Shown here: positions 9,194 to 41,264 of the stretch, piece after piece
Layout of the letters: every line of letters begins with the position of its first letter
Numbering within the stretch: position 1 is the first letter of the stretch
NCBI RefSeq assembly: GCF_963675165.1
Contig: NC_087390.1
Coordinates: 3,424,001-3,488,000, forward strand
Direction: 5' to 3'
Source: Halichondria panicea
Taxonomy: Eukaryota; Porifera; Demospongiae; Suberitida; Halichondriidae
DNA: 64,000 nucleotides
Position numbers and translations under genes: made by a program
Notes under the pieces: model-generated
What the model was told of the DNA's origin: nothing
The model's database searches: none
What the model saw: only the letters and a program-made list of their open reading frames with translations

Positions 9194-9462
9194 GGTATTA
9201 TCAACCATGAAAATTAATTAGCATACATATTTACTTCACTCTACTTCACTCGGATCACCACCAGTATTAATACTGTCTCAGCTTCTATAAACACAGAAAC
9301 ACAAAATTGTAGTAACTAATTATATAAGTGTTGCCTATCGGCTAAAAATAATTCATTACTACACGGGGTGTTATAGTTACTAGTCGAGGTGAATAATTTA
9401 GTAGTGTATACATGCACCGGTATACATATGTAATTTCCTAGACCAAAGTGAAACGTCTCACA

Positions 9463-9512
9463 CTCCTATTTAAAGTACCATTGTTGTCCAACAATGGTAC
9501 TTTGAATAGGAG
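9463..9512. repeat. Short hairpin (24-bp arms, 2-bp loop)
   Basis: CTCCTATTTAAAGTACCATT pairs with its mirror ending at 9512, with one mismatch in the arms and a TC loop. It could be a very short fold-back element. A transcribed hairpin is possible, but there is no evidence for it. Confidence 0.6.
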
Positions 9513-9874
9513 TTGAGTTACGTGGGTTATTCATGTAGTTACGTAGAACTGCCCGTTCAGCATTCTGTAGCTATTGAAGACTGAAGTAGGAAGGACTATA
9601 GACTGATATACATGTAGTGTGTCTATATAACAGATTACAAAAACTATATAATCAGTACAATGTATCGTTATGGAGAGCATGAGCTTGTTGTTGTACGTTG
9701 TTCTCCTTAATTCATTGATGTTGAGAGATTGCATGCACATGTGCCACAAATGTTGTTCTATATAACTTGCTACTTACTATCCATGTACATCATTCTGTTC
9801 CAATGTATCACTGTCCTACATGTGCATATATTATAGCGTTACAGCAATAGAAAATCCCCATTGTAGAGGCTACC

Positions 9875-10065
9875 ATATAGTGGGTTATTTTCGAGGCGGT
9901 ACATTTTTGCAGATTACTCAAACTAAAACATTTCGTGGATTTTATTTTCAAGGATAGATTCGAGGTTCATATGACCACACCTCTATAGTAGAGAGGTCTT
10001 TCAACTGGAAGTAAACCGATTTTCAAGGTCAATCCTCGAAAACCTCAAAAATAACCAAGAAACCT
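9875..10065. mobile_element. MITE family B, degenerate copy
   Basis: It begins ACCATATAGTGGGTTATTTT, a mutated form of the family terminus ACCGTATAGCGGGTA, and contains the characteristic TTTCGTGG and CTCGAAAA words. The right end is eroded. Other copies are at 13791-13990, 24092-24315, 33052-33240, 55525-55745 and 57716-57945. Confidence 0.5.
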
Positions 10066-10403
10066 TGAATTCAAAAGAATTTCGATCCAGTATACAACAT
10101 GTGAGGATTATGTTGGCTAGAGTATCCAATGCCTCTAAAAAAAATTAGGCAGCTAAAGAGAGTTGACAAGTTTATTGTTCATTATAATTATAACAACACT
10201 AGTAATGGTGACAGAACACAAGGATATAAAAAGAGCTATATACAAATACAAGAGCTAGCGCGTGCATGGCCTCCATGTATGGCGTGTGCAATACAGGAAC
10301 TAATTATGACTGTACATTCAATCATAGTAATCAACTAGTAAACAGATAAGTACAAGTTTCATGTGCTTTCAATTTTCCTTGCCATGCAAACATAAGTTAT
10401 CAT

Positions 10404-12041: not shown

Positions 12042-13440
12042 TCAATTAATGACTTTATATTCTGACTTCTGTGATACATTGGATTTACTGTTTCTTTTGT
12101 ATTTTCAACAGACTATACTAATACACTCGTGACGTTGTAGAGGTTACCGTGTTGTAAAATAAACAGATATTGTTTCAAAATGCTAGCTAGCATTATGCAC
12201 CTGCATTTATTATGCATGTACATGGGCACATAAGTAATGTGAAAAGCAAAACAAACAAATTTCCATCAGTGTATAATAATTATACATACTTGTTGCCCAT
12301 GCAGTGAGTGGGCAGATCAAAGCAATCCAGTGCTCTGTATATGGCATGTTGCATCACTACCACCAAGGGCGTATGAAGAGAAGAGGGCATGCAACTACAA
12401 TCTATCCTATTACAAATGGGTGGGGGTTTATGTCTAAAAATAGAAAGTAAAGAATGTATTGTACGTGACTTTATACTCTTTATTCCCTAGTGGGCGGTGG
12501 CTAAATCATGGCTAAATATAGCATATCCTGCTGACTCATCAATAATAATTATGACGCATACATGCACAGTATACATTGTGAGTTGCATGCCCTCTTCTCT
12601 TCATACGCCCTTGCTACCACATTATATCATAGCATAATGCACTGGGATTATATGCACTTGCACTGTGTGTAAATGCAGTAGATTTTGAGAAAGAAATCTA
12701 CTTTTGGGACTTATGCCCCGTCCTCTCACCCAGTAACTCATTTGGTCCGTTTTATAGTATACTACCTTTTCATTAGTTATGGGAACCAAACCTAAGAATT
12801 TACTATGGAATTCATGAATACACTATGTCTTTATTACAGGGAAAAAACTTAAGAGTTTGACGTCATTGGGCAACAAGTTAGTTATTGCAGGCGTCCTCAT
12901 GCAACATGCCATATTATATTGCACTGGATGCGGCCCTCGGGCATTATGTTGCACTCAGTCTATAATACTTATAATATTATGTATATCTCTCAGCAACCAA
13001 CACAGAAACATGCACAAAAGCAACACCATTCGAGGAGTTAATTTTAACGTACAGTACAAGTGCATGTTGCCTATACCATGGCTCAAACAATTTGTTCCTG
13101 GGCACTCAAGGGCGTATAAAAGAAAAGAGGGCATGAAACTACTTGGTACTATAATGCTAGTGATCATAATTATAATTCATAGATGAACAAATCAGGGGTA
13201 TACGGTCTGTACATATGTAATTTCATACATACTCCTTCCCTACCCAGATTACCATTTTTAAGACACTCGTGACTTGTACGTACGTACGCAGAACTGCCAG
13301 TAATCTGGTATATATCCTATGGGCTGTTGAAAATACACATAGGAACTATTAGGAATAGATACACTAAAACTATGACGCCAAGTCTACTATATAACCAGTA
13401 TAGCGCAGCAGTGTGCCTCGCAGGTTAATAAAACTAGTAC
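12042..13440. other. Upstream region of transporter copy 1 (unit 1)
   Basis: This sequence is nearly collinear with 17542-18660 of unit 2, apart from the MITE at 12364-12613. It contains no gene. Near 13108 and, in unit 2, near 18382 lies a solo MITE family A end (CAAGGGCGTATAAAAGAAAA) that predates the duplication, since it is shared by both units. Confidence 0.6.
12364..12613. mobile_element. MITE family A, clean copy with proven insertion site
   Basis: The 250-bp element has perfect 33-bp terminal inverted repeats beginning CAAGGGCGTATGAAGAGAAG and continuing AGGGCATGCAACT. It is flanked by CTACCAC at 12357-12363 and 12614-12620. The paralogous site in unit 2 (around 17849) reads CATCACTACCACATTATA with a single CTACCAC, that is, the empty site. 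Insertion therefore followed the duplication and generated a 7-bp target duplication. No coding capacity. Confidence 0.9.
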
Positions 13441-14410
13441 ATACTCAAAGGTATAGCAATACCAATTCTATAGAAGTCTAGTAACGGGTATATCAAAAAC
13501 CAGGATATGTCCAATCATTGACCAACAATTATAGGTGAAATAGAAAGATGTTCCATGAAATGTATGATGTTAAATGCAAAACATTAACCACAAGTAATTA
13601 AGGCTTATAACCAATAGCTGTAGATTTGATTTTACGTTTATCAGGAGCAGATGAGGGGATGGAGCGTCTTACTATGCATAGTATTGCTTATTCAGTATCG
13701 TCTCACATTTCCTTGTTTATAATGTGCTAAATACTCTGTACATATAATATTATGTGTAGTTGATAACGTGTTTGATCTAATAATATGAAGTACCGTATAG
13801 CGGGTATATTTCGAGGGTATAAACTTTCGCAAACTGACTGTTAGAAAGGTTTTCGCGAAATAGCGCCTTTCTGCAGCATGCATGCATGCATGCGATATTT
13901 AATTCGTGTGTATATAAATGTTCGCAGTACATGCTTAATCAGCAAAAATCATAAACATTTATACCCTCGAAATATACACGCTATACGTTACAATGAATAA
14001 TGTTAGCAGCACTTAGCGGTTTGACATAAATTATACATGGTGATTTGTACATAGCTAGACGATACAGAATCCACATAGTAAAACGCTCGATCTCCTAATC
14101 TGCTTCTGCGTATATATATGTATCTCGACTTTCCCACGTCCATTCTTGGGGGGAGGGGTGAAGCCCTTGACTCAACATTGTAGGTTTTAAACGACTTTTG
14201 TGGGTTAGGTTTGACAATCACAACCAGCTTGAGCAAAAAGGAGATCGCAAAAAAGACAAATACAGCTAAACACAGACTATAATATACAGCTGGGTTGATC
14301 TCACTTTGATGACTAGTGGCTTACATTGCTCTCAAAGCTTGCACAGTCCTGTACTATTACAAAAGCCACTGCCCAAGCAAAGCTAAAGAACACGTAGCAC
14401 ACCTGGAAAG
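13440..14410 (-). pseudogene. Decayed transporter fragment in unit 1
   Basis: Recognisable minus-strand pieces include bases 13500-13640 (similar to the helix 7-8 coding region) and 14120-14400, which encodes remnants of PNPQKSF and MDVGKSRY from the central loop, with frameshifts and deletions throughout. A family B MITE at 13791-13990 splits it. The fragment resembles subfamily I more than the adjacent subfamily II gene (VIVKPNP versus IIEPNPP). The matching relic in unit 2 is at 18780-19170 and a related one is at 23160-23770. Confidence 0.7.
13791..13990. mobile_element. MITE family B copy
   Basis: The left end TACCGTATAGCGGGTATATT and right end AATATACACGCTATACGTTA are inverted relatives. 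Internal words GTTAGAAAGG, CCTTTCTGCAGCATGCATG and AATTCGTG are shared with the copy at 55525-55745, defining a subgroup. The unit 2 counterpart retains only the last ~55 bases (about 18710-18762), so the deletion in unit 2 removed most of the element. Confidence 0.75.
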
Positions 14411-15585
14411 ACGACTATCGCTAAAGGGGTGACATCACCATAAAAGAAGGAAAATGTATTCAAATTCATCTCGCCGCGAACAAAATGGACAGCATGCAAT
14501 GGAGAAAACTACTTGAATATTCAGCAACCTAATGCTCCAGAGCAATGTCAATACAGCACTAATAGAAATGGATGACCTCGTACAGGTTGGAGTGAACAAA
14601 CGTGGGACAAAGCATCAGACTGCTCGAAACTGCTTGAAGCTAAATGGAAAAGAAGCCCAGCCACAGCACTAAATTCCAGCTCCGCCAGAATCGGAACACT
14701 GTTACTTATCTTCGAACTGACAACAGGCCAAAGTATTAGATATGCGGCACTCCACACCCAAGGAGCAGCTGGTCCATCTGGTGTGGATGCGTATACGCCT
14801 GGCGTCGCCTATATGCTCATAATGTTTCAAATGATCTCTGCAATAGCCTGACAGCTGTCGCCTACACGCACCAGCAATGTCCACCCTGATTAGCTAACAA
14901 TGTTTGTGGCCTGTCGACTCATTCTTACACTGAGCAAAGTATGCCACGATGTAGAGAAAGAGCCAGTACTGCACCATTAACAGGATAAACCCTTCCACAA
15001 CCAGCAAACAGACATGCAGGATGATACCAGGGCAGAAATTCGAACAAGAAAGTTTTGGGGAAGGCAGCAAAGTGCATTTTTGATATTCCATCCAATCGCA
15101 AAGCTTCAATATCCCAGCCCTATACCGAAAACATGAACAACTGAAAAGATAGTAGGGTGAGTGAGTGAGGCAAGTGGAAATGGCATCGTTCACGTCACTG
15201 GTTTTGCAACAACTGAAGGCATAAATATATAAAAACGATTAGCCAACCTCATCGCTGCAAAAAATAATTCACAATGCAGCTCACTTTGGCATGGATCAGG
15301 TGAAAACCAAGGCTACTCAGACATGCAGGGAATGCACAATAACTATCAAGAGTCCATAATAAAAGAGAGAGAACACGCAACTTGTGCATCAGATGTAACG
15401 TGACTTCCTCTCTGAAACGCGTGATCAATAATATTGCTGCCTCGAGGCAAGTGGCAGCTCCAGGCCGTTCAGATTAGTCAGTTACCAAGGAGGAAGTCAC
15501 ATTACTTTTCGTTGTAATGCTTTTTCGTTTTTGTTCGTGATCTAAATAATAATATTATACATTTTATTGAAAGATCTCGCATTCG
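14411..15585 (-). other. Duplicated stretch with hydrophobic minus-strand frames, unassigned
   Basis: This region recurs at about 19171-20275. Minus-strand frames encode hydrophobic segments such as CPGIILHVCLLVVEGFILLM followed by YWLFLYIVAYFAQC (14894-15193; 19594-19872) and VWSAAYLILWPVVS (about 14700-14757). The frames are interrupted and do not join into one protein without indels. I read it as the relic of an unrecognised membrane-protein gene carried with the transporter cassette. I cannot name the family. Confidence 0.35.
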
Positions 15586-15948
15586 AAACCCAGTGTACAG
15601 CACGTGAGAATATGTTGGCTGGAGTATCTGATGCGTCCAGCTAAAGATGTGTTTATTATTAGAGACATGCATGCATTAATAGTGGTGACAAAACACAAGG
15701 AAATATAAATGACATCTATATAATAATATTATATATAAGGGTGAAAATGCATGGCCTCCTTGACGTGTGACATACAGGAAACAATTGATAGCTAAATATA
15801 GTAACCATGCAACTAGTATATAAACAGTATAATTATATTCATAATTATAGCTATAGTTATAGTATATAAACATAATTATAAGTACAAGTTTCAAGTCATT
15901 TCAATTTTCCTTGTCATGCGCACCATGAAAACATAGTTATCATTAATT

Positions 15949-17541
15949 TTAATTAGTAATGCTTGGATTAAGATATCTATCATAGACCTCCTCCACAACA
16001 GTTTGTGCATTGTATTCCTCATCTCTAACTCTCTTCTTGTACCAGTGAGCCAGGAGGCAGTACAGGACGAATCCAAACAGGCTCACGCAACTTTTTACTC
16101 CGAATAAAATACAATCAGAGCAATATATATGAGAAGGATGGCCAGTGGAAGAGGATCCTAAGCCAAATGATGTGATAATAAGGCCTGTGAAATAGCCAGT
16201 GAAAAATCCTTTCATGTTATATGGAGCCTGAGCACAAACTAACTCCAGAACTGCACAAAAAAGAAGGTAGTATAGTACCCCTCTTGATGCATAAAACGAA
16301 ACACTTACTACCCACAAGGGTTTTTCATTGTTAAAGAAGTGATGAACTAGCGTCAAAATCAGGAAAATCACACTTAGAACGAAACTGATGATGGCAACCA
16401 TACCAATCCTTTTCAGAATACTAGGCAACTTATCTTTTAATAGTGGATAAATGACAAACTCATTCAGTACAGCAGTAATCAATGCCCACCATTCACTCTT
16501 GTATGTAAATGCAAAAAGTTTATAACTGCTGCAAGAGGTCGAATTGGGGAACACTTCAGTTATTAAGGGCACTTTGTAAGAGACGGGGCCATATGAAACA
16601 CTAAGTGAGAGCACCCACAGTGGCAGACTAATAACAAGTAGGCGTAGAACTGTCTTTACATCTTCAACTTGCTCTGTAGTGAATGGTCCACCATATCTCA
16701 ACTTTCCCAGGTCCATTCTTGAAGGTATGTCTTCCTCCCAGTATGTGAGAGCACTGCGATTGAGGGGAGCCTTGTGCTTGGCTGCAAACTTGAGAACTTG
16801 ATATGCAATTCTTAGTGTATGGGATGACTTTGGCAGAATAATCAGCCACTTTTTAGCAAAGAGAAAATCTGTGACAATAACAATACTCATGCATGAAACT
16901 GGGAACAAACTCCAAAGCTGAATTGTATTAGCAGGATACTGACCATTATCGTTCATTAAGCACTTCAAGTAGTTGTTAAACAGAATTTCAATAATCCATT
17001 TACTAACAGAAAAGTTAAAAACTAACCAGGCAACAAAACTTGTGATACTTGAAGATGAAGCATCAGGCATCTGATCCAAACCAAGATGTAGCGTTGAAAC
17101 GATTGAAGCTCCAGCTCCTACTATATACAAAACTTGAATCGAACAAATAAAGATGTTAGTGATGTACTGATTTTTCGTAAAATCATACTCAAGGAATAAT
17201 GTAGCAACGCTGGTAATAAATGTTGCTAGAAACAACAATACAAATCCAAATTTGGCAACTTTGTAAACACCAAGTTTAGCTTTTGTGTTCGCTAGCCATC
17301 CTAAAAGCAGTATTGTCGCAGCAGCAACTGAAACAAGTATTGCAAAGAGCCATTCGAAAGAATGATTCAATTTGTTGTGCCGTATTGCTTGGAGTGTCAC
17401 AAAAGATGACAATGACAAGGTACTCAACAAAACCCAAACTAGAACAAGAAAAGCTCCTTTTGAGTAAAACCATCTAATTTTGTATTTGCACTTACATCTT
17501 CTTCTCTTTGGTCCTGGTTGTCCTCCGATAGATGGATCCAT
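15949..17541 (-). CDS. POT/SLC15-like transporter, subfamily II copy 2
   Basis: Intact single-exon gene, 530 residues, starting at the ATG of MDPSIGGQPGPKRRR (17539-17541). The first ~25 residues are basic and Cys-containing (RRRCKCKYK) and distinguish subfamily II from subfamily I. About 12 membrane segments are split by the loop KFAAKHKAPLNRSALTYWEE...GGPFTTEQVEDVK. LGLDQMPDASSSS lies before the loop and AQAPYNM in the second half, matching the POT SQAP..M block. The C terminus YKKRVRDEEYNAQTVVEEVY is shared with all copies. The substrate is unknown and the POT ExxER motif is not seen. It is the best-preserved representative together with the gene at 20638. Confidence 0.8.
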   Translation of the reverse strand: MDPSIGGQPGPKRRRCKCKYKIRWFYSKGAFLVLVWVLLSTLSLSSFVTLQAIRHNKLNHSFEWLFAILVSVAAATILLLGWLANTKAKLGVYKVAKFGFVLLFLATFITSVATLFLEYDFTKNQYITNIFICSIQVLYIVGAGASIVSTLHLGLDQMPDASSSSITSFVAWLVFNFSVSKWIIEILFNNYLKCLMNDNGQYPANTIQLWSLFPVSCMSIVIVTDFLFAKKWLIILPKSSHTLRIAYQVLKFAAKHKAPLNRSALTYWEEDIPSRMDLGKLRYGGPFTTEQVEDVKTVLRLLVISLPLWVLSLSVSYGPVSYKVPLITEVFPNSTSCSSYKLFAFTYKSEWWALITAVLNEFVIYPLLKDKLPSILKRIGMVAIISFVLSVIFLILTLVHHFFNNEKPLWVVSVSFYASRGVLYYLLFCAVLELVCAQAPYNMKGFFTGYFTGLIITSFGLGSSSTGHPSHIYCSDCILFGVKSCVSLFGFVLYCLLAHWYKKRVRDEEYNAQTVVEEVYDRYLNPSITN

Positions 17542-18680
17542 TCTATTGATGACTTTATATTCTTCTGTGATATATTGGATTTACTGTTTCTTTTGTATTT
17601 TCAACAGACTATACTAATACACTCGTGATGTTGTAGAGGTTACCGTGTTGTAAAATAAACAGATATTGTTTCAAAATGCTAGCTAGTATTATGCACCTGC
17701 ATTTATTATGCATGTACATGGGCACATAAGTAATGTGAAAAGCAAAACAAACAAATTTCCATCAGTGTATAATAATTATACATACTTGTTGCCCATGCAG
17801 TGAGTGGGCAGATCAAAGCAATCCAGTGCTCTGTATATGGCATGTTGCATCACTACCACATTATATCATGGCATAATGCACTGGGATTATATGCACTTGC
17901 ACTGTGTGTAAATGCAGTAGATGTTGAGAAAGACATTTACTTTTGGGACTTATGCCCCATCCTCCCACCCAGTAACTCATTTGGTCCGTTTTATAGGCTA
18001 CTACCTTTCCATTAGTTGTGGGAACCAAACCTAAGAATTTACTATGGAATTCATGAATACACTAAAAACATAATTGTGTCTTTATTAGAATTTACAGAGA
18101 AAAAACTTAACCAATCAGAAAAGTTTGACGTCATTGGGCAACAAGTTAATTATTGCAGGCGTCCTCGTGCAACATGCCATATATTGCACTGGATGCGGCC
18201 CTCGGGCATTATGTTGCACTCATGCATGCTGAGCAATAACTAATACATACTCAGTCTATAATACTATCTCTCAGCAACCAACACAGAAACACAAAAGCAA
18301 TATCATTCGAGGAGTTAATTTAACGTACAGTACAAGTGCATGTTGCCTATACCATGGCTCAAACAATTTGTTTCTGGGCACTCAAGGGCGTATAAAAGAA
18401 AAGAGGGCATGCAACTACTTGTTACTATAATGTTAGTGATCATAGTTATAATTTATAGATGAACAATTCAGGGGTATACGGTCTGTACATATGTAATTTC
18501 ATACATACTCCTTCCCTACCCAGATTACCATTTTTAAGACACTCGTGACTTGTACGTACGTACGCAGAACTGCCAGTAATCTGGTATATAACACTAAAAA
18601 CTATGACGCCAAGTCCACTATAACTCATAGCGCAGCAGTGTGCCTCACGGGTTAATAAAACTAGTACATACTCAAAGAAA
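17542..18680. other. Upstream region of transporter copy 2 (unit 2)
   Basis: Collinear with 12042-13440, without the MITE insertion, plus small indels. The solo family A end at 18382 is shared with unit 1. The segment CATAATTGTGTCTTTATTAG (18069) is present here and reduced in unit 1. No gene is visible. Confidence 0.6.
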
Positions 18681-19170
18681 GCAATTCTAATTCAATTCAC
18701 CACTTCAGCGAAAATCATGAACATTTATACCCTCGAAATATACACGCTATACGTTACAATGAATAATGTTAGCAGCACTTAGCGGTTTGGCATAATTTAT
18801 ACATGGTGATTTGTACATAGCTAGACGATACAGAATCCACGTAGTAAAACGCTCGATCTCCTAATCTGCTCCTGCGTATATATACATTGTATGTATCTCG
18901 ACTTTCCCACGTCCATTCTTGGGGGGAGGGGTGAAGCCCTTGACTCAACATTGTAGATGGTTTTAAACGACTTTTGTGGGTTAGGCTTGACAATCACAAC
19001 CAGCTTGAGCAAAAAGGAGGTCGCAAAAAAGACAAATACAGCTAAACACAGACTATATACAGCTGGGTTGATCTCACTTTGATGTTATAACTACATCGCT
19101 CTCAAAGCTTGCACAGTCCTGTACTATTACAAAATCCACTGCCCGAAGCAAAGCTATAAAGAACACGTAG
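18680..19170 (-). pseudogene. Decayed transporter fragment in unit 2
   Basis: Minus-strand remnants of the central loop (PNPQKSFKTIYNVES, then RMDVGKSRY in another frame at 18890-19015) and of the preceding helices, matching the relic at 14000-14410. The 3' portion present in unit 1 is deleted here. The tail of a family B MITE lies at 18710-18762. Confidence 0.7.
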
Positions 19171-20275
19171 CAAACCTGGAAAGACGACTATCACTAAAGG
19201 GGTGACATATGTGTATATGTACTTGAATATTCAGCAACCTAATGCTCAAGGGCAATGTCAATGCAGCACTACTAGAAATGGATGACCTCGTACAGGTTGG
19301 AGTGAACAAACGTGGGACAAAACATCAGAAAAAAACTGCTCGAAGTAAAGGAAAAGAAGCCCAGCCACAGCACTAAATTCCAACTCCGCCAGAATCGGAA
19401 CACTGTCACAATAACATTATCTTCAAACTGATAACAGGCCAAAGTATTAGATATGCGGCACTCCACAACCCAAGGAGCAGCTGGTCCATCTGGTGTGGAT
19501 GCGTACGCCTGGCGTCGCCTATATGCTTTAAACGATCTCTGCAATAGCCTGGCAGCTCTGGCCTATATGCACCAGCAACGTCCATCCTGATAGCTAACAG
19601 TGTTTGTGGCCTGTCGACTCATCCATACACTGAGCAAAGTATGCCACGATGTAGAGAAAGAGCCAGTACTGCACCATTAACAGGATAAACCCTTCCACAA
19701 CCAGCAAACAGACATGCAGGATGATACCAGGGCAGACATTCGAACAAGAGGATTTTGGGGAAGGGCAGCAAAGTGCATTTTTAGTATTCCATCCAATCGC
19801 AAAGCTCCAATATCTCAGCCCTACCGAAAACATGAACAACTGAAAAAAGAGTAGGGTGAAAGAGTGAGGCAAGTGGAAATGGCATCGTTCACATCACTGG
19901 TTTTGCCAACTGGAGGCATAAGTATATAAAAACGATTAGCCGACCTCATCGCTGCAAAAAAACAATGCAGCTCACTTTGGCATGGATCAGGTGAAAACCA
20001 AGGCTACTCAGGGGGAATGCACAATAATTATCAAGAGTCCATAATAAAAGAGAGAGAGCATCGCATACTTGTGCATCAGATGTATTCGGAAAGTAACGTG
20101 ACTTCCTGTCTGAAACGCGTGATCAATAATATTGCTGCTTCGAGGCAAGTGGCAGCTCAGTTCAGATTAGTCAGTTACCAAGGAGGAAGTCACATTACTT
20201 TTCGTTGTAATGCTTTTTCGTTTTTGTTCGTGATCTAAATAATTATACAGAAACCTTTTATTTGAAAGATCTCGC
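19171..20275 (-). other. Second copy of the hydrophobic relic
   Basis: Nearly identical to 14411-15585 with scattered indels. It includes a 90-residue frame at 19272-19544 and a 92-residue frame at 19594-19872 with the same CPGIILHVCLLVVEGFILLM segment. The two copies conserve the hydrophobic stretch but differ in frame elsewhere, which argues against selection on an intact protein. Confidence 0.35.
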
Positions 20276-20637
20276 ATTCGAAACCCAGTGTACAGCACGT
20301 GAGAATATGTTGGCTGGAGTATCTAATGCGTCCAGCTAAAGATGTGTTTATTATTAGAGACATGCATGCATTAATAGTGGTGACAAAACACAAGGAAATA
20401 TAAATGACAGCTATATATATAATAAGAGGGTGAAAATGCATGGCCTCCTTGACGTGTGACATACAGGAAACAATTGAGAGCTAAATATAGCAACCATGCA
20501 ACTAGTATATAAACAGTATAATTATATTCATAATTATAGCTATAGTTATAGTATATAAACATAATTATAAGTACAAGTTTCAAGTCATTTCAATTTTCCT
20601 TGTCATGCGCACCATGAAAACGTAGTTATCATTAATT

Positions 20638-22242
20638 TTAATTAGTAATGCTTGGATTAAGATATCTATCATAGACCTCCTCCACAACAGTTTGTGCATT
20701 GTATTCCTCGTCTCTAACTCTCTTCGTGTACCAGCGAGCCAGGAGGCAGTACAGGACGAATCCAAACAGGCTCATACAACTTTTCACTCCGAATAAAATC
20801 AAGTTAATGTTTTTACAATCAGAGCAATATATATGAGGAGGATGGTCAGTGAAAGAGGTTCCTATGGCAAATGATGTGATAATAAAGCCCATGAAGTAGC
20901 CAGTGAAAAATCCTTTCATGTTATATGGAGCCTGAGCACAAACTAACTCCAGAACTGCACAAAATAGAAGGTAGTATAGTACCCCTCTTGATGCATAAAA
21001 TGAAACACTTACTACCCACAAGGTAAGGTTTTCATTGTTGAAGAAGTGATGAACTAGCGTCAAAATCAGGAAAATCACACTTAGAACGAAACTGATGATG
21101 GCAACCATACCAATCCTTTTCAGAATACTAGGCAACTTATCTTTTAATAGTGGATAAATGACAAACTCATTCAGTACAGCAGTAATCAATGCACACCATT
21201 CACTCTTGTATGTAAATGCAAAAAAATTATAACTGCTGCAAGAGGTCCAATTGGGGAATATTTCAGTTGTTAAGGGCACTATGTAAGGGACGGGGCCATA
21301 TGAAACACTAAGTGAGAGCACCCACAATGGCAGACTAATAACAAGTAGGCGTAGAACTGTCTTCACATCTTCAACTTGCTCTGTAGTGAAAGGTCCACCA
21401 TATCTCGACTTTCCCAGGTCCATTCTTGAAGGTATGTCTTCCTCCCAGTATGTGAGAGCACTGCGATTGAGGGGAGCCTTGTGCTTGGCTGCAAACTTGA
21501 GAACTTGATATGCAACTTTTAGTGTATGGGATGACTTTGGCTCAATAATTAGCCACTTTTTAGCGAAGAGAAAATCTGTGACAATAACAATACTCATGCA
21601 TGAAACTGGAAACAAGCTCCAAAGCTGAACAGTATTAGCAGGATACTGACCATTATCGTTCATTAAGCACTTAAAGTAGCTGTTCAAAAAAGTTTCAATA
21701 ATCCATCCACTAAAGAAAAAGTTAAAAACTAACCAGGCAACAAAACTTGTGACACTTGAAGATGAAGCATCAGGCATCTGATCCAAACCAAGCTGTAGCG
21801 TTGAAATGGCTGCAGCTACAGCTCCTACTATATACAAAATTTTAATCGAACAAATAAAGATGTTGTTGATGTACTGATTTTTCATAAAATCATACTCAAG
21901 GAATAACGTAGCAACGCTGGTAATAAATGCTGCTAGAAACAACAATACAAATCCAAATTTGGCAACTTTGTAAACACCAAGTTTAGCTTTTGTGTTTGCG
22001 AGCCATCCTAAAAGCACTATTAATGCAACAACAACTGAAATAGGTACTGCAAGGAGCCAATCAGATAAGCGTTTATTGCGCTGTAGTGCTTGAAGAGTAG
22101 TAAAAGATGACAATGATAAGCTACTCAGAAAAACCCAAATTAGTACAAGAAAAGCTCCTTTTGAGTAAAACCACCTAATTTTGTACTTGCACTTACATCT
22201 TCTTCTCTTTGGTGCTGGTTGACCTCCGATAGATGGATCCAT
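20638..22242 (-). CDS. POT/SLC15-like transporter, subfamily II copy 3
   Basis: Intact single-exon gene, 534 residues from the ATG of MDPSIGGQPAPKRRR (22240-22242). An earlier in-frame ATG at 22285-22287 would add 15 residues, but the paralogues start at MDPS, so the shorter form is preferred. Landmarks are as in the other copies: RRRCKCKYK, LGLDQMPDASSSS, NRSALTYWEE, GGPFTTEQVEDVK, AQAPYNM. It carries a small extra segment (KNINLI) before the penultimate helix compared with copy 2, and YTKRVRDEE replaces YKKRVRDEE. It is probably a functional membrane transporter of unknown substrate. Expression may overlap with that of copy 2, because upstream sequence is partly shared. Confidence 0.8.
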   Translation of the reverse strand: MDPSIGGQPAPKRRRCKCKYKIRWFYSKGAFLVLIWVFLSSLSLSSFTTLQALQRNKRLSDWLLAVPISVVVALIVLLGWLANTKAKLGVYKVAKFGFVLLFLAAFITSVATLFLEYDFMKNQYINNIFICSIKILYIVGAVAAAISTLQLGLDQMPDASSSSVTSFVAWLVFNFFFSGWIIETFLNSYFKCLMNDNGQYPANTVQLWSLFPVSCMSIVIVTDFLFAKKWLIIEPKSSHTLKVAYQVLKFAAKHKAPLNRSALTYWEEDIPSRMDLGKSRYGGPFTTEQVEDVKTVLRLLVISLPLWVLSLSVSYGPVPYIVPLTTEIFPNWTSCSSYNFFAFTYKSEWCALITAVLNEFVIYPLLKDKLPSILKRIGMVAIISFVLSVIFLILTLVHHFFNNENLTLWVVSVSFYASRGVLYYLLFCAVLELVCAQAPYNMKGFFTGYFMGFIITSFAIGTSFTDHPPHIYCSDCKNINLILFGVKSCMSLFGFVLYCLLARWYTKRVRDEEYNAQTVVEEVYDRYLNPSITN

Positions 22243-23159
22243 TCTATTAATTCGATAATTATATTGTTTCTTTCGTATTTTCAACAAACTATACTAATGC
22301 AGCAGTGACGTTGTAGAGGTGACTGTGTTGTAAAATAAACAGATATTGTTTCAAAATGCTAGCTAAGCTTATTATTGCACCTGCATATGTACATGGATAT
22401 AGTATATGCAATGTGAAAAGCAAAACTAACGACTTTCAAATTGCCATTTTTGTCTCAGCTAAATTTCGTATATCTCATTCGTTCACCCTCAAATATTCTA
22501 GTAATACGATAACAACATTCGAGATTATGAACGTATACAGTACAAGTGTAGCCTAAAGTTTGCCCCCCCCCCCCCTGTTTTTAATACTGTAATATGCATT
22601 TATACACGTGCAGATTATTTCAATTATGTATCTTTCACTTGTTTACATTTTGTTATCTCTGAGAACATAAAATGCGCCTCCAGCAAGGAGGAATATCTCC
22701 TCCCGGACCCACCACCTCACCCATGGGCTTCACCTACATTTCTATTTTGTGCCCCCCCCCACTATTCTTACGGCCCTTGCTAGTGAGGTGAACCGTTATG
22801 AATTAACGTATATGGTACACATGTAATTTCACTATTTATTTTTAGGAACTCAAGACTCGTACATACGTAGAACTGTCAGCTAGTAATCTGGTAGCTATAT
22901 CCAAGACTGAATATAAGTGGGCTATTGACTATAGATACACCTGTAGTGTGTCTATAAGAGACTATGACGCCAAGTCTACTATAACCTGTGGTGCAGGGGC
23001 GCACCTTGGGTTAATACAATAATACTAGTGCTCAAAATATATACCATGCACTCTTGTGCAGTAGGAAGTTACAATGATGTAGTGATGTGCCATGAAATGT
23101 AAGAATCAGGTGCAAACATTAATTCATAACAACAAGGAAGTTTGTTGAGCAACCAACGG
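22243..23159. other. Upstream region of transporter copy 3
   Basis: No gene. It holds a run of 13 C at 22563-22575 and another C run near 22743, both prone to assembly error. From 22840 on it aligns to the shared cassette sequence of units 1 and 2. Confidence 0.55.
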
Positions 23160-24315: not shown

Positions 24316-25433
24316 TTACTTCTATACGTACATTAGATTTACCACAAGTTAACTACAATAATTATTGTGCAGAGTGCATTTATCGTTAATGTAATCTCTC
24401 GCACAGTTTGTGGTCACATATTTTATAGGAGGACACAGATTCAAGGGTAGGCCTATAATTTATTGGGACAGCTAAAAATGAACTTTCGCAATTGTAGTTA
24501 TAATGACTGACCTGAGCAGTTTGCAGTTATATAATTATTGGCACTTTACTAGTCCTTCCACCATTAGCCTATATCCGCCGATATACTTGTTAAGGCATGC
24601 AGGCGGCTCCAAAAATCATAACTCTGAGGGAGGGGGGTTAAGACAATCAATCCGTATTCAAATGCCGGACAACTAAGTTTAAAGTGTAGCCTGGATTAAT
24701 TGCAAATTTAGGTCAACTGGCTAGTAAAATATTCATTGAATCTTGTGACTAATATCCTTTAATTTAAACACTAGTTACTAAAACACCTTCATGTCTTCTG
24801 CAGAGACCCCTAGCCCTTGCATTGATTGGACAGGATCAGGAGGGAGAGGGAGCACTCTGAGGTCGAGGAGGGAGGCTAGCCTCCTTCAGAGCTTTCTCTA
24901 TATAGATCTATGCCTTCACAGTTCAAGCTTCACAATTTAATACAAGGCAGTGCGGCCTGGAATGGAGGCTAGAGGGAGGCCAATGTCTAGTTTTCGGTAT
25001 AACCTAGTTTTCAGACTCTATCTAGATTCTGGATTCTAGACTTGTTGGGCTGAAATAGATTTGCAAACTTGTACTATTCTTGAAGGCTGAAGAGTGAAGG
25101 CTGAAGAGTAGATGCAGCAGTGGATTTTGAAATCATCAACAGCATTGAAGATCATCTCCAAAAATCAGACCACCCTACAATTACAAAGACCCAGAAGATG
25201 ATATTCCCGAATCCCCTGGTTTTCCGTAAGCCTAGTTGGCAGCTCAGAGCCTGCTTCGCCTCTGTGTTGGTCACTCCTGTCCTCTACCGATTCTATCTCA
25301 TTATGGTCACCATTGGATACGTACTTTTTTCAAGTATAAAACCATGCCAAGTTTTTTCCTGTGAGTTAAGCACACTCGACAATAACTATGCATTATTGAA
25401 GGCAACACCAAAATTATATGTTTCAAGAGTCTA

Positions 25434-26176: not shown

Positions 26177-26257
<81 letters not shown>

Positions 26258-27068: not shown

Positions 27069-27266
27069 CTCCCCCACGTCCTGATTACCCTGCGGTTGAC
27101 TTGAGTTGGACCGGAGTGTTTCCTTGTGAGCTGGGATGGAAGGGGAGTGCCCTGGCCGTTCTCATTCTGTCAGCTGTGTTTATCGCCTGTTACTCACTCA
27201 TCACTGCCTGCTTGGTGAGATGGAACCCTCAGAAACAAAGGAATATTCAATTTTACACATGCTCAG
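27069..27266 (+). CDS. Possible upstream transmembrane exon of the NLR gene
   Basis: An open 198-bp segment bounded by a plausible acceptor (TTTACACAG, ends 27068) and donor (CAG|GTAATC at 27267). It encodes a Pro-rich start (PPRPDYPAVDLSWTG), then one strong membrane helix (SALAVLILSAVFIACYSLI) and a basic flank (VRWNPQKQR). Phase 1 at both ends matches the following exons, so it can splice in frame to 27355. It could supply a membrane anchor in a longer transcript, or belong to a separate upstream gene. No further upstream exon was found with confidence. Confidence 0.4.
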
Positions 27267-27354: not shown

Positions 27355-30300
27355 TTTTTGATACTCAAGAAAAGCCGACCAAGTTCCAAGTGAGAGTTCA
27401 GAGCACTAATCGACTGATGTTGCCCCCCACTCTCAGTCTGTGTGTACTGTTACTGATGTTCCGCTTACTGTTACAGTCAGGAAATGTTGAAGCAAACCCT
27501 GGACCAATGTTTAGTAAGTGGGTATCTCCTTATGTATTATAATTATTATGCAAACTGCTCGTGGACTGTTTTATAGAGTAAATGCATGCATTATAAACCA
27601 CTGTTTGTATGCCATTGTACTATACTGTAGGTTCAAGTTTGATTCTCAGCGATTTGCAGTCTGTTTATGAGAAATTGATACTAGCCGCTGGAAACTGGTT
27701 TGACCTGGGACTTGCCCTGGGATTAGGTCATGGCACCCTCAGCAATATAAAAGATGACTATCATCGGAATAAGGATTGTCTACGTGAAATGATAGCTGCT
27801 CGCTTGAAGACTGGCCCTCTCACCTATTCTGAAATATGTCAGAGTCTCAGAGCACCAACAGTTGAACGAAATGATGTCGCTGAGGCTATAGAGGAGAAAT
27901 GTTCAGGTATGTAGTAATATAGTGCAAGATGCGAGCCTATAACCTCAGTTACCATCAGATTAGTACTTACAGTGTATATAGCTCTCTAATGGTAAGAGGT
28001 CTACTACCTATACACATGTACACAGACTAAGACCGAATGTGTAGAGTAAGGACATCATTTATTTACTATTATTAACTTCTCAGATGACAATATTTGGCCT
28101 GGGCCATCAAAGAGGCCAAAAGTTTGTGTGATTGAAGCATACAAAACATTCCTTATTAGCACTTATAACGTAAGACAGCTTCCTGCTGATGAGCGCTGGC
28201 CTCTTAGCTGTGTGAAACAATTTATAAACCTGAAGATTGTCGATGATCTTGATCGAGCAACTCGATCCATAATTCAAACACATGAGGTGCACGGGAAAAT
28301 TGATTGTGTAGGTAAAGGCACAGTTTGTTTTGAACAAATTGCATGTAAATTTGCTGACTCATTTCCCAAACTAGTTATCATCAAAGGAGCTCCAGGAGTC
28401 GGTAAGACCACCTTGTCATGGGAACTATGCAGACGGTGGAGTCTAGGGGACATTTGGAGAGACTACTCTCTCGTTGTATTACTGCGACTTCGCGATAAGT
28501 GTACTCATGAAGCTAATAACTTGGTTGACCTATTTGAATGTGGAGATGAAGCTACGTCCCAGAAAGTTTGGGAAGAATTACTTATCTCACAAGGTAAAGG
28601 ATTGCTGTTTATTCTTGAGGGTCTTGATGAATTTCCACAAGCCTTTAGAGAAGCTAAAGATTGTATTATCATGAGACTCATACATGGAAAGCTTCTTCCA
28701 GCTAGCACTGTTGTCATAACCAGCAGACCATGGGCTTTGGATTCACTTAAAAAATGTAGCTGTCGAATTGATCGAACAGTTGTGGTCCTTGGTTTTACAG
28801 AGATACAGATACAAGAGTACATTGATCAGGCAATTAAAGATGGAGCACCAGATGGATTGCGAGCATATATTGCTGCCAACCCACACATTAACAGTTCCAT
28901 GTACAATCCTCTATATGCTCATATTGTTGTTCAAGTGTATATTGAATGCCATTACAGAAAACACAATGTTTTTCCAAACACAACAACAGAACTTTATACT
29001 TCATACTCGCGTGTTTTGCTAAAGCGATACCTCACTGACCATCCAGTGCAAGAGGAGTGGAATGGTGAGCTTCATGAGTTACCTCAATCCCTTCAACCTC
29101 ATTTCCTTCACCTCTGCCAAATTGCACACAAAGGAATAGTATTAAACGAACATCAGCTTATTTTCTATAAAGATGACATCCCTGAAGGCAGTACTACGCT
29201 TGGTTTTATGGATAGTGTTCACCCATTGTATCGATCCATCACAACAACTACATCTCCTTCATTCAACTTTATTCATCTAACGCTGCAAGAGTTCTTGGCT
29301 GCACTCCATATACAGAGAACATACCCCCAACAGAAACAGCTACTTTTCATTGAGACACAATCCGAAAAATACAGTATGATCACTTTATTTTTAGCTGGTC
29401 TCACACGATTTTCTGATCCCTGGACAAAATGTGTTTTACCTATGCCACAGGTTAGTCTAATATCATCAGACGAATTACCTGACGAAATGGAGGTTCACCT
29501 CAATAGAAAACACATACTCTGGCTTTATGAAAGTCAGAATGAACAACTAATTTCCTCTTTCGATAATGTTGTACTCCCTATCAAACTAATGCAGTCACAT
29601 TCGGATTCCTTGTATTTCCTTGCTTTAGGCTATTGCATAGCAATAGGAAAATTTATGTTACATTTTGAAATTGATACTACTTCCCACTATAGCGAGGCAT
29701 TCATAGTTGTTAAGAGTGAGCAAAATCAGCGTCATTTACTATCTGGACTCAAGAGATACAATTCTAAATGCACTTCACAAGTCAAAGTTTTCGATATACT
29801 GTGGGATTTATGCCCATTTCCTGATAGTTTGTATGAAATAATCAACTATATTCCAGCTGCAAGCCAAGGAGTCCTACAAGTGTATGATGGCGAACACATG
29901 CCGTTGGCAAGCAAACTATCTAAATTCATAGTGAATGCTGACACAGTTACTATCCCATCAACAATATCGCCGGATTCATTAGAAGTATTGAGATATGCAA
30001 AAACTGTGAAGACATTATATTGTCCTATTAATGACTCAGAGATACCTAGCATTTTATATGATAGAATTACGGAATTCTGTTCTTCTTTGGAATATTTGGA
30101 AGTTACCATAAACATTGGCTGCATGTATTGATGATAGCGATGATGAATCAAATCTTCATGATAATTCAGAATCAGCTGATAGCAATGCACAATATCTACT
30201 GTTCAGATTGAACATAAGAAGATTTAAAGAACTAAATCGTTGTCAATTATTCCCTGCGAAATTTGGTCCAATATTTACAGTTGATTTTACAGAACAGGCA

Positions 30301-31267
30301 AATAAGTTTATTGTTCATTTTTCTGAATTCTTGGAGTATTTCGGATTATTTACTGATTATATTCCAACATGCAGCAGTGCCTTAAGACTCTCGGTCTTTC
30401 ATTCCCTCTCTACGTGTCCTTTGTTGGAAAAGCTAACAATTCATGTGAACTCCAGTCCTCCTCAAGACATCACATCACTTGCATATGGGCTAGATCTATG
30501 TAAACATAAAACGCTCCAAAAACTTGACATTTTCAATATTCAGTTTAATGGTATCAAGGCACTCGGAGAAAGCTCCTCAGTTAGAGAATTATCTTGTAAT
30601 GTGGAGTTTACATCAGATGACACAGTGGAGGAGTTTTGTGACATGCTGCAGCAAAATATTACTTTAGAGGAAATAGAGCTTGAGGTTTGTCGTTGGGATG
30701 ATATTATGCATAACTATTGGCTGCAAACGATTGGAAGAGGCATACTAGATGAGGTGATGCCAGCTGTTTCATCTCGATTTTTGCAACGAAGATACAGTGT
30801 GCAGTCTGACGCTAAAGAAATTTGTGATTGTAACGAAGTTTACGGATATTAATACTCACATAATTGTCAACACTGATACAATTATGGCTATTTGCAATAC
30901 ACTTGAAAATAATAAGTATCTCGAGTACCTGCATTTTCCAAAACTACGTGTGGAACCACACCAACGTTTCTTACCACCTATCGCACGTGCATTAAGTAAG
31001 AATGTGAGTCTCATAAGTTTGGTATTGGTGTTTGCACATATAAACACGGAAAAACCGCTTCTATCGGAAGACACTAAAGCTGTTGTTGATATGTTGAAAG
31101 TAAATAAGACGCTTCATTTTTTCCACCTAATGGTGGATATTTCCGACTGGTCTCCGATTATTGAAGCTCTAAAACTCAATACAACAATTAGAGAATTACA
31201 TGTTCCATTAAATGCAAAGGAAAGTGCTATAAAGTGTATTGACTATGTTCATGTCAGAAATTTATAG
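27355..31267 (+). CDS. NLR-type receptor: 2A-like leader, Death domain, NACHT, LRR-like C terminus (disrupted 3' end)
   Basis: Exons 27355-27513, 27631-27906 and 28084-31267, all joined in phase 1. From the Met at 27417 the leader is a hydrophobic stretch (LSLCVLLLMFRLLL) running directly into GNVEANPGP, a 2A-like motif. Exon 2 encodes a Death domain (WFDLGLALGLGHGTLSNIKD, with CLREMIAARL). Exon 3 encodes a NACHT ATPase with Walker A GAPGVGKTT (about residue 225) and Walker B LLFILEGLDEFP (about 296), then a helical region and leucine-rich segments (LEKLTIHV, LEEIELEV, IRELHVPL). Two frame changes break the 3' part. The NACHT frame ends at a stop at 30129-30131 and continues +1 from about 30115 to 30852, then again +1 from about 30797 to 31267. 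So this is either a recent pseudogene, a receptor truncated after NACHT, or an assembly with two indels. Expected role: intracellular innate sensing with Death-domain signalling, inferred from the family. Confidence 0.75.
27477..27506 (+). other. 2A-like ribosome-skipping motif
   Basis: Codons read S-G-N-V-E-A-N-P-G-P. The usual consensus is D-(V/I)-E-x-N-P-G-P, preceded by Gly and by a leucine-rich helix; here Asn replaces Asp and everything else is retained. Separation would fall between Gly (27501-27503) and Pro (27504-27506), 29 residues after the Met at 27417. Confidence 0.7.
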
Positions 31268-34344: not shown

Positions 34345-35904
34345 ATGCACAGCTATAGTGTCGAAATGAGTAGTTGTAAATACAGAATCAGAACGTTCTA
34401 CTCAAAGGGAGCCTACCTTGTTCTAGCTTGGACACTGCTTGTGAGTGCTACAGCTAATGCTAGCCTTAACTTAATCAAGGAAGTTAATATTGATTATCCT
34501 GGGTGGCTAGTTGTAATACCACTTTTGATTTTTCTGCCGATAATATTATGTCTTGGATTTTTCGCCAATTCCAAGCTTCAAGATCACGTAATATCGAGGA
34601 TAGGAATTATTACCCTATTTTTTACAACAATGGTTGTCAGCATATACATCATAATCCTAGGAGACTACTTCGAAAAGTACAGGCTCATCAATGAAGTCGC
34701 ATTCTGTATAATATTGTGTGTGTGTCTGGTTGCATTTATATGTTTTATCTGCATACTACAGCTTGGTTTGGATCAGATGCCTGATGCTTCATCTTCTAGC
34801 ATTACTAGTTTTATCGCTTGGTTTGTGTTTAGTATAAGTGTCGGTAGATGGACTGGGGAGTTTTTGTATTTTGTATTGAAGGACAACTGTTTTGGATTGG
34901 TTGCTGATCCAGTAAGTATTATCCAGCTTTATAGTCTGTGTCCTGCTGTATTTGTAAGTCTTATTCTTATTCTTGACCTTCTTTTCGCTAAGAGCTGGTT
35001 GATAATTGAGCCTAACCCACCAAAATCTTTTACAACCATTTACCAAGTTCTCAAGTTTGCAGCTAAGCACAAGGCTCCCCTCAATCGCAGTGCTCTCACA
35101 TACTGGGAAGAAGACATACCTTCAAGAATGGACCTGGGAAAGTTGAGATACGGTGGACCATTCACTACCGAGCAAGTGGAAGATGTAAAATCAATTTTAC
35201 GATTGTTGGCTATGGGCATACCCTTGTGGTTAATCTTGTTTGCATATGCTTTTAATCCTACATTTCATGGCATTTCATTACAACATCACGATATAAAGTT
35301 TCCTAATCTCACCAACTGCACATCTGATATGCTTTTCTCTTTCACGTACAGTGATCATTGGTGGTCTATGATCGGTATCCTGGTTAATGAGTTTTTTTTT
35401 TACCCACTTTTGAGAGATAGGCTTCCAAGCATTCTAAAGAAAATTGGTGCTGGTTCCTTCCTTTCTCTAGTTTTGAGTATGTGTTTTATTATTCAAGAAT
35501 CATTTGAGGTTTTTCGTAGTTACGAGGCAATCGAATTGGTAAAAAGTGTAATATCATTTGTATCAAAAGGTCTGCTGTCAAATATTTTTCTTTGTGCAAT
35601 ACTGGAGTTAGTTTGTGCTCAGGCCCCATACAACATGCGGAGATTATTTACTGCGTATATGCTTCTGGATTATCTGACTTCCACACTTGCTGGCTATTTT
35701 GGAGGTGTTACCATTTCCCAACAAAATAATAAAATGGTACTGATTGTGTTTGGAATCAAGGCCATTTTGAGTCTGTTTGGATTCATCCTTTACTGTGTCC
35801 TGGCTCGCTGTTACAAGAGAAGAGTTAGAGACGAGGACTACAATGCACAGAGAGTTGTGGAGGAGGTCTATGATCGGTATCTAAATCCAAGCATTAGTAA
35901 TTGA
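34345..35904 (+). CDS. POT/SLC15-like transporter, subfamily I, plus-strand copy
   Basis: Intact single-exon gene of 519 residues from ATG 34345 (MHSYSVEMSSCKYR). The second Met at 34366 corresponds to the start used by the other subfamily I genes, and either is possible. About 12 hydrophobic segments; landmarks LGLDQMPDASSSS, the loop KHKAPLNRSALTYWEE...GGPFTTEQVEDVK, AQAPYNM and the tail RVRDEDYNAQRVVEEVYDRY. It ends in NPSISN like subfamily II rather than TTRSQ or TPP, suggesting gene conversion or retention of the ancestral 3' end. It is the only intact copy on the plus strand, so the cluster includes an inversion. A membrane carrier of unknown substrate; no ExxER motif. Confidence 0.8.
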   Translation: MHSYSVEMSSCKYRIRTFYSKGAYLVLAWTLLVSATANASLNLIKEVNIDYPGWLVVIPLLIFLPIILCLGFFANSKLQDHVISRIGIITLFFTTMVVSIYIIILGDYFEKYRLINEVAFCIILCVCLVAFICFICILQLGLDQMPDASSSSITSFIAWFVFSISVGRWTGEFLYFVLKDNCFGLVADPVSIIQLYSLCPAVFVSLILILDLLFAKSWLIIEPNPPKSFTTIYQVLKFAAKHKAPLNRSALTYWEEDIPSRMDLGKLRYGGPFTTEQVEDVKSILRLLAMGIPLWLILFAYAFNPTFHGISLQHHDIKFPNLTNCTSDMLFSFTYSDHWWSMIGILVNEFFFYPLLRDRLPSILKKIGAGSFLSLVLSMCFIIQESFEVFRSYEAIELVKSVISFVSKGLLSNIFLCAILELVCAQAPYNMRRLFTAYMLLDYLTSTLAGYFGGVTISQQNNKMVLIVFGIKAILSLFGFILYCVLARCYKRRVRDEDYNAQRVVEEVYDRYLNPSISN

Positions 35905-39728: not shown

Positions 39729-41264
39729 TCAAGGTGGTGTTAGATATCGATCATAGACCTCCTCCACGACAGTTTGTGCATTGTATTCCTCGTCTCTAAC
39801 TCTCCTCTTGTACCAGCAAGCCAGGACACAGTACAGAATGAATCCAAACAAACTCACAGCAGCCTTAATTCCAAATATGACTAGTACTATTTCATTATCT
39901 TTTGAGTGAATTGCACCGCTTCCATAAATTCCAGCAAGTGTAGCGGTTGTGTAATTAATTAGAATATATGCGGTAAATAATCTTCGCATATTGTATGGGG
40001 CCTGAGCACAAACTAACTCCAGTATTGCACAAAGAAAAATATTTGACAGCAAACCTTTTGATACAAAGGATAAAACGCTTTTTACCAATTCAATTACCTC
40101 GTTTCTGTGAAGAGTCTCCATCGATTCTAGAATAATAAAACCTGTACTCAAAGCTATAGAGAGGAAGGAAGCAACTCCGATTCTCTTTAGAATACTTGGA
40201 AGTTTGTCTCTTAGTAACGGGTAGAAAAGGAACTCATTAACCAGGATACCGATCATAGACCACCAATGATTACTGTATGTGAAAAAGAAAAGCACATCAG
40301 ATTCACAGTTGGTGAGATTAGAAAAATTTAGCGGGGTGTTATGATTTAAAATTGTAGGACTAAAAGAAAGTGAAAAGGAGATTAACCACAAGGGTAAGCT
40401 CATGACCAACAATTGTAAAATAGATTTTACGTCTTCAACTTGTTCTGTAGTGAATGGTCCACCGTATCTCGACTTTCCCAGGTCCATTCTTGAAGGTATG
40501 TCTTCCTCCCAGTATGTGAGAGCACTGCGATTGAGGGGAGCCTTGTGCTTGGCAGCAAACTTGAGAACTTGGTAAATGTTTTTGAAAGATTTTGGTGGGT
40601 TAGGTTCGATAATCAAACAGCTTTTAGCGAAAAGAAGTTCAAGAACAATAATAAGACTTGCAAATACAGTTGGAAACAGACTATAAAGCTGGGTAATACT
40701 TGTTGAATCAGCAACTAACCCGAAACAGTTGTCCTTCAAGGTAAAATACAAAAACTCCCCAATCCATCTACCAGCACCTATACCAAACACAAACCAAAAA
40801 ATGAAACTGGTGATACTAGAAGATGAAGCATCAGGCATCTGGTCCAAACCAAGCTGTAGTATGCAGATAAAACATGTGAGGGCCACCAGAAACACAAACA
40901 ACAATGTACAGAACGCAAATTCATTGATGAGCCTGTACTTTCCAAAACCAAAGCCATATCCTAGACCAGGACCAAGGACTATGACGTATATGCTGACAAC
41001 CATTGTTGCAAAAAATAAAGTGATAATTCCAATCCTTGATATTGCATGATCTTGAAGCTTGGAATTGGCTAAAAATCCAAGACATAATATTATCGGTAGA
41101 AAAAACGAAAGTGGTATTGTGACAAGCCAATCAGGATAATCTATACGAACTTCCTTGATTAAGTTAAGGATAGTATTAGTTGTAGCACTCACAAGCAGTG
41201 TCCAAGCTAGCACAAGGTAGGCTCCCTTTGAGTAGAACTTTCTCACTCTGTATTTACAGCTCAT
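39729..41264 (-). CDS. POT/SLC15-like transporter, subfamily I copy on minus strand (right)
   Basis: Intact single-exon gene, 511 residues, starting at MSCKYRVRKF (41262-41264). Landmarks: LGLDQMPDASSSS, loop KHKAPLNRSALTYWEE...GGPFTTEQVEDVK, AQAPYNM, tail RVRDEEYNAQTVVEEVYDRYLTPP. About 12 membrane segments. The insert GLGYGFGFGKYR after helix 3 is shared with the broken copy at 7500-8685, making these two the closest pair and implying a duplication or move across ~30 kb. The gene faces the plus-strand copy at 34345 tail to tail, with the orphan gene between them. Substrate unknown. Confidence 0.8.
   Translation of the reverse strand: MSCKYRVRKFYSKGAYLVLAWTLLVSATTNTILNLIKEVRIDYPDWLVTIPLSFFLPIILCLGFLANSKLQDHAISRIGIITLFFATMVVSIYVIVLGPGLGYGFGFGKYRLINEFAFCTLLFVFLVALTCFICILQLGLDQMPDASSSSITSFIFWFVFGIGAGRWIGEFLYFTLKDNCFGLVADSTSITQLYSLFPTVFASLIIVLELLFAKSCLIIEPNPPKSFKNIYQVLKFAAKHKAPLNRSALTYWEEDIPSRMDLGKSRYGGPFTTEQVEDVKSILQLLVMSLPLWLISFSLSFSPTILNHNTPLNFSNLTNCESDVLFFFTYSNHWWSMIGILVNEFLFYPLLRDKLPSILKRIGVASFLSIALSTGFIILESMETLHRNEVIELVKSVLSFVSKGLLSNIFLCAILELVCAQAPYNMRRLFTAYILINYTTATLAGIYGSGAIHSKDNEIVLVIFGIKAAVSLFGFILYCVLACWYKRRVRDEEYNAQTVVEEVYDRYLTPP

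Follow-up and report, generated by a model that had tools for sequence, protein, structure and literature searches.

A candidate StopGo junction between membrane-protein exons and a Death-NACHT receptor in the sponge Halichondria panicea

Gene layout in the window

The window analyzed here is a stretch of 64,000 nucleotides from Halichondria panicea (C14:3424001-3488000). It belongs to a genome of 131.5 Mb in 39 contigs, which was scanned for copies of the sequences described below. On its forward strand, the window carries a series of predicted exons in which a StopGo (2A) motif stands between sequences for a small membrane protein and sequences for a Death-NACHT receptor. The features are as follows.

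25198..25360, + strand: exon A of the membrane product (MIFPNPLVFRKPSWQLRACFASVLVTPVLYRFYLIMVTIGYVLFSSIKPCQVFS), with the first hydrophobic segment; 45 listed genome copies, no stop
27069..27266, + strand: transmembrane (TM) exon, with the conserved loop VDLSWTGVFPCELGW, the hydrophobic segment LILSAVFIACYSLITACLV and basic RWNP; 47 copies, no stop
27355..27513, + strand: 2A exon VFDTQEKPTKFQVRVQSTNRLMLPPTLSLCVLLLMFRLLLQSGNVEANPGPMFS, bordered by ag/gt, with phase 1 at both ends; 51 genome matches, no stop
27417..27419, + strand: ATG that the earlier note on this DNA called the start
27483..27506, + strand: StopGo octapeptide NVEANPGP; predicted skipped bond between Gly 27501-27503 and Pro 27504-27506
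27631..27906, + strand: Death-domain exon by profile and model; 167 genome matches
28084..30131, + strand: NACHT exon in the spliced frame, open to TGA at 30129-30131
30115..31267, + strand: LRR-like sequence that continues the receptor in two further frames (ORFs 30115-30852 and 30797-31267), with two frame breaks in the window copy

When 25198-25360, 27069-27266, 27355-27513, 27631-27906 and 28084-30131 are spliced, they form one frame of 947 aa with GT-AG borders. Product 1 of this model is 170 aa long, and its residues 19-37, 86-104 and 142-160 form hydrophobic segments; product 2 begins with Pro. We propose ATG 25198 as the start codon of exon A. A 7-nt insertion is present near the start of exon A in the window, so this start is uncertain; other copies begin MKMTSQRH... 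or MQWIL... when read by eye. Near the 3' end of exon A, eight copies differ by indels of 3 and 15 nt that keep the frame, and they share the donor T/GTRAGT. In the intron that separates exon A from the TM exon, a long (GT)n tract occupies approximately 26180-26255. The search for a Pfam name for the membrane product gave a match to Commissureless (E=0.006), below the cut-off of that family.

Two domains of an NLR are identified in the receptor body. The NACHT domain is recognized by PF05729 (E=5e-20, 72.4 bits against a cut-off of 26.7). Pfam detects the Death exon weakly: the window exon scores E=0.18, below the cut-off, and three of 43 aligned members match Pfam Death at E<=0.01. When the profile of these 43 sequences was compared with the PDB, all 13 matches at E<=1 were PIDD or FADD chains, the best at 0.0024. 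The AlphaFold2 model of the exon has a pLDDT of 93.1, and its ten best Foldseek matches are death domains (FADD, oligomeric complex 2of5, RIPK1, TNFR1) at probability 1.00, TM 0.67-0.77 and E 0.028-0.097, none of them reaching E 0.001. The N-terminal death fold of an NLR is thus identified by profile, AlphaFold2 model and Foldseek. Downstream of NACHT, ORF 30115-30849 yields a weak Pfam match to LRR_14 (E=0.2) in a region that is frame-broken in the window copy. In four C14 paralogs, the stretch matching this ORF lies within open frames of 1056-1081 aa.

Other long reading frames surround the receptor. An array of similar ORFs occupies 5100-22287 (- strand), 34345-35904 (+ strand) and 39729-41264 (- strand), the fullest being about 510-550 aa. 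These share LDQMPDASSSS and ALTYWEEDIPSRMDLGK and look by eye like multi-spanning transporters; the one tested (34345-35901) has no Pfam match at 0.001. The 1081-aa ORF at 191-3433, whose C-terminal part appears polytopic by eye, likewise has no Pfam match at 0.001.

The motif and its partners across the genome

NVEANPGP at 27483-27506 fits the widened StopGo core, (D/G/C/N)(V/I)ExNPGP, given in PMC12846837. The upstream stretch LLLMFRLLLQSG is L-rich; the same paper describes L-rich upstream context for active 2As, and also describes the context rules as loose and chimeras as often inactive (PMC12846837). To count the motif, we searched the genome with the pattern RAYRTNGARNNNAAYCCNGGNCC, i.e. 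(D/N)(V/I/M)ExNPGP, and used the reversed pattern as a control. There are 118 exact matches, positions being listed for 117, and none for the control. A same-strand motif lies at most 1.2 kb upstream of 60 of the 150 listed Death-exon matches (167 were found), and none lies downstream of the 150 or on the opposite strand. On these counts, chance occurrence of the motif was rejected. The earlier note made its case depend on conservation of the motif in related NLR loci, and this conservation is found within this genome, where the motif precedes 46 of the 54 closest Death matches. Of the 150 listed Death matches, 90, 47 of them on C1, have no exact motif upstream, so a Death protein of this genome can dispense with it.

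The membrane-protein exons are paired with each other and with the motif. All 45 listed copies of exon A are followed by the TM exon on the same strand, 120-1977 bp downstream, and all 47 listed copies of the TM exon are followed by a 2A motif within 165-240 bp. In 40 of these 47, the motif lies at 165-239 bp and a listed Death match follows; in the other seven, all on C2, the motif lies at 225-240 bp. The intron between the TM and 2A exons measured 48-57 nt in six copies. The open frames of the TM and 2A matches are equally long in 25 of 37 C14 copies. A single stop-free frame therefore crosses the short intron, making the link between the exons independent of splice prediction in those copies.

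Both sides of the 2A are conserved coding sequence in one frame. The TM exon of the C2 copy L059 differs from those of four C14-type copies mostly at third codon positions (8/11/23 to 11/10/24 differences by codon position). Among close C14-type paralogs, dN/dS is only moderately low, at 0.58 in the TM exon (n=10) and, with the 2A exon divided in two, at 0.43 and 0.81 (n=9); these values are not strong within such close copies.

The motif also accompanies other leaders and other domains. Of 58 loci examined, a sample that was not random, 39 have the motif followed within about 1.2 kb by a Death or CARD-like match; the match at one of these, L024, is weak and spans 24 aa. Some 2A families of the genome carry LAGDVESNPGP, which we take to be the F2A core. 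In the C5/C10 and C11/C3/C4 families, the 2A lies in a single exon that starts MGI.VELWRARIG and has one or two hydrophobic segments. L044, L046, L048, L051 and L056 belong to otherwise distinct 2A families and have a similar start, of the type MGI.VELWRARIG.F.GGRG or MDDLQTWRARIG. The C2 copy read has the order TM exon, 2A, CARD-like and Death exons, and both loci read on C1 have a 2A and then a CARD-like exon. The CARD-like exon has no Pfam match. Its best fold match is a de novo design, followed at ranks 2-8 by the Apaf-1 CARD (probability 0.99-1.00, TM 0.65-0.76, E>=0.16), none of these matches being at E<=0.001. A NACHT of the window type is found downstream in only some of the other 2A families, so not all of them are established as NLRs.

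At five sites that lack the TM exon, an exon for an EHD ATPase takes its place and runs in frame into the 2A exon:

C13:6488089-6488498 (L057): EHD-2A fusion
C14:1233155 (L006): EHD-2A fusion
C14:1235173: EHD-2A fusion
C14:1259025: EHD-2A fusion
C14:1314225: EHD-2A fusion

The exon matches EHD4 at E=1.4e-25, and at all five sites the open frames of the EHD and 2A matches are equally long. No P-loop was found in the examined flanks of the chimeras L006 and L057. Two further EHD matches on C14 (1222326 and 1283176) lie in open frames of 510 and 462 aa. L075 (C14:1225842) has the same CATCGAGGATAC junction, with no EHD match listed there.

A separate group of motif-bearing loci (L011, L012, L014, L015 and L052) resembles retroelements that carry 2A, the reverse transcriptase and endonuclease domains having been tested in L052 only. 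The open 1023-aa frame at L052:2501-5569 encodes a 2A, a PHD finger, an endonuclease and a reverse transcriptase, and is a non-LTR element. Such 2A-bearing elements of the APE type were reportedly described by Odon in 2013. L052 shares the octapeptide with them and with the window family, and differs from the latter in encoding a PHD finger, endonuclease and reverse transcriptase and no receptor. A search for stray relatives in prokaryote genome contigs gave 34 pattern matches and no relative.

Alternative readings of the 2A exon

The earlier note had described a 29-residue peptide starting at ATG 27417, followed by Pro and the Death-NACHT body. Translation agrees: MLPPTLSLCVLLLMFRLLLQSGNVEANPG (29 residues, ending GNVEANPG) is followed by P, M, F and S and then by the gt donor at 27514. 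The claim that a 2A leader forms the N terminus of the receptor survives only in part, since the element does precede the receptor and is conserved in paralogs, whereas the start at 27417 is not supported. In 17 of 28 2A exons read, a 9-nt in-frame deletion removes this ATG and leaves the exon free of Met. The sample is biased because 16 of the 28 were selected for unusual match length; the deletion is present in 14 of these 16 and in three of the 12 others. Judged by match length, 20 of the 47 loci of the window family carry the deletion (17 confirmed by letters), two of which also gained 6 nt. The 2A exon of L059, the only C2 copy read, is also without Met and sits between the TM exon and the CARD-like and Death exons. 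In the alignment of the 28 copies, protein-like sequence with in-frame indels is conserved 5' of the ATG. ATG 27417 is thus probably an internal Met codon, and a gene model with a signal-like leader starting there is probably wrong.

The exon is otherwise kept in frame. The frame is preserved in 27 of the 28 exons read, despite indels of 3, 6, 9 and 24 nt. The acceptor AG 5' of the exon is absent in four of the 28 (L004, L035, L073, L074); together with a frameshift in L031, this indicates that some copies may be dead. L031 (C6:1051713) is an outlying copy with a 4-nt frameshift in the leader, and L074 (C16:4371402) is an outlying copy whose leader is shorter by 24 nt and whose 2A is retained. 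A suspected broken donor in L003 was rejected, as the donor reads TTAG/GTATAA.

The main reading, to which we assign a probability of roughly three in four, is that the 2A is the internal junction of a fused gene, at which a membrane protein is split from a Death-NACHT-LRR receptor. A leader at the N terminus was rejected as the main model given the pairing with the TM exon, the ATG deletions and the shared open frames. It could still apply if a second promoter or start made the protein begin at ATG 27417, with the 2A leader acting as a dual signal sequence as in SpNLR2A6; the receptor would then be cytosolic after skipping and exocytic without it. We consider this unlikely. Read from 27417, the leader is hydrophobic, with a mean of 2.02 over its best 19 residues. 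Its 29 aa are close to the 26 aa of SpNLR 2A leaders, and for one of those leaders signal-sequence function has been demonstrated (PMC4981915). The single-exon 2A leaders starting MGI.VELWRARIG in C5/C10 and C11/C3/C4 also speak for such a start. Against it stand the in-frame loss of the codon, the pairing of all 47 listed TM-exon copies with the motif and the conserved protein-like sequence that precedes the ATG. The 2A exon looks internal, in a position other than that of an SpNLR2A-type dual signal sequence.

Less probable again, and in our judgment very improbable, is that the 2A is a relic of fusion with a 2A-bearing retroelement, kept by recent duplication and without working recoding. 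The genome does contain such an element in L052 (2A, PHD, endonuclease, RT), and the C14 copies are recent and similar. However, at least three leader types (TM-exon, MGI.VELWRARIG and C1) keep the octapeptide at an equivalent position before Death or CARD-like domains, and in L074 the 2A stayed when the leader lost 24 nt.

A further reading concerns the window copy alone and is compatible with the internal junction as the preferred reading of the family. On this reading the window copy would be a decaying duplicate, its Asn and leader functionless even if the family functions, and we hold this at slightly less than an even chance. The copy sits some 1.8 Mb away from the main cluster, its frame is broken twice downstream of NACHT, and its exon A carries the 7-nt insertion close to the start. 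Its TM, 2A, Death and NACHT exons, however, are all open. The Asn variant occurs at two of the 117 listed sites: the window copy has it, and so does C14:1031503, the paralog closest to it. This paralog differs from the twice-broken window copy in having the LRR stretch within a 1079-aa open frame. The intact frame of this sister argues that the Asn is not simply decay. The variant also need not be weak. Natural StopGo variants with p12=N are more than 95% active in their own context, whereas D12N in a foreign context is only modestly active, according to PMC12846837. As this literature evidence points in both directions, the proposal that Asn weakens skipping was not adopted.

Proposed function and relation to known systems

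In StopGo, contacts between the nascent chain and the exit tunnel halt formation of the NPG/P bond, the upstream product is released and translation continues (PMC12846837). On the internal-junction reading, one mRNA would carry a single frame for two proteins, a Death-NACHT-LRR receptor and, ahead of it, a small membrane protein that measures about 170 aa in the window copy. Most ribosomes that reach NPG/P would release the membrane protein and then make a separate receptor starting with Pro. Two hydrophobic helices are predicted ahead of the 2A. In L058, basic residues flank them (RHAR..KPSWQLR before helix 1, RWNPRK after helix 2), from which we infer that both ends of the membrane protein would be cytosolic. 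A receptor made without skipping would therefore be tethered to the cytosolic face of the membrane and would not be secreted. StopGo would most likely yield a membrane protein and a soluble NLR, with a tethered NLR upon failure. With a TM exon upstream of an internal 2A, a choice between secreted and cytosolic forms is less likely than one between tethered and soluble forms. The two released products may also be functional partners.

The closest known system is SpNLR2A, the 2A-like signal sequences at the N termini of Strongylocentrotus purpuratus NLRs, 85 of 241 of which have a 2A (PMC4981915). There, an uncut leader sent a reporter to the exocytic pathway (PMC4981915). Both systems place a StopGo octapeptide and a hydrophobic leader before a Death-NACHT-LRR receptor and have many members. 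They differ in where the motif sits. In sea urchin it is N-terminal or nearly so, and the leader has 26 aa in each of the 14 sequences listed (PMC4981915), whereas in the window family it lies within the frame, preceded by either an EHD exon or a conserved membrane protein of about 170 aa. For this reason, the unskipped form of the window family should be membrane-tethered rather than secreted. Viral StopGo junctions such as F2A of FMDV (PMC12846837) likewise yield two products of one frame and are L-rich upstream. In contrast to these, the genes here are cellular immune genes spread over exons, and one family has Asn at p12 in two copies.

Sponge NLR gene models with transmembrane segments are also comparable. 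Those of Dysidea avara are interpreted as putative membrane-bound receptors in PMC12909245; a 2A would separate the two parts, and the terms "2A-like" and "skipping" are absent from the text of that paper that was searched. Among the titles listed in our literature searches, no report of 2A in sponge NLRs was found, though Rao et al. 2025 (Cell Rep 44:115822), a survey of viral and cellular 2As, may contain some. 2A-NLRs themselves are already known in sea urchin (PMC4981915), and membrane segments have been reported in sponge NLRs (PMC12909245). The layout described here, with membrane-protein exons upstream of a 2A-NLR, appears to be new. Yuen is said to have described transmembrane NLRs in Amphimedon in 2014.

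A wider reading, which we regard as evenly balanced, is that StopGo is a standing polyprotein junction in a superfamily of animal immune genes, arranged as a short membrane cistron, a 2A and a death-fold effector. It would span receptor genes of NLR and other Death or CARD types, and the membrane half would be exchangeable, being a two-helix protein, a leader of the MGI.VELWRARIG kind or a fragment of an EHD ATPase. If this reading is true, each locus would supply a membrane partner and its matching cytosolic sensor one for one, a small fraction would stay tethered to an extent that depends on 2A strength, and some sponge "membrane-bound NLRs" would be cut apart during translation.

According to PMC12846837, StopGo is found very rarely in cellular genes. 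In this single animal genome the pattern matches exactly 118 times, and a match lies just upstream of 60 of the 150 listed death-fold exons. The natural series of variants (Asp, Asn, Val/Ile, leader deletions, swapped partners) is suited to studying how 2A strength and context evolve. If the junctions are active, they would form a natural cellular polyprotein system that couples a membrane protein one-to-one to an intracellular sensor, and gene models in which these receptors appear as membrane-bound or N-terminally secreted would need correction.
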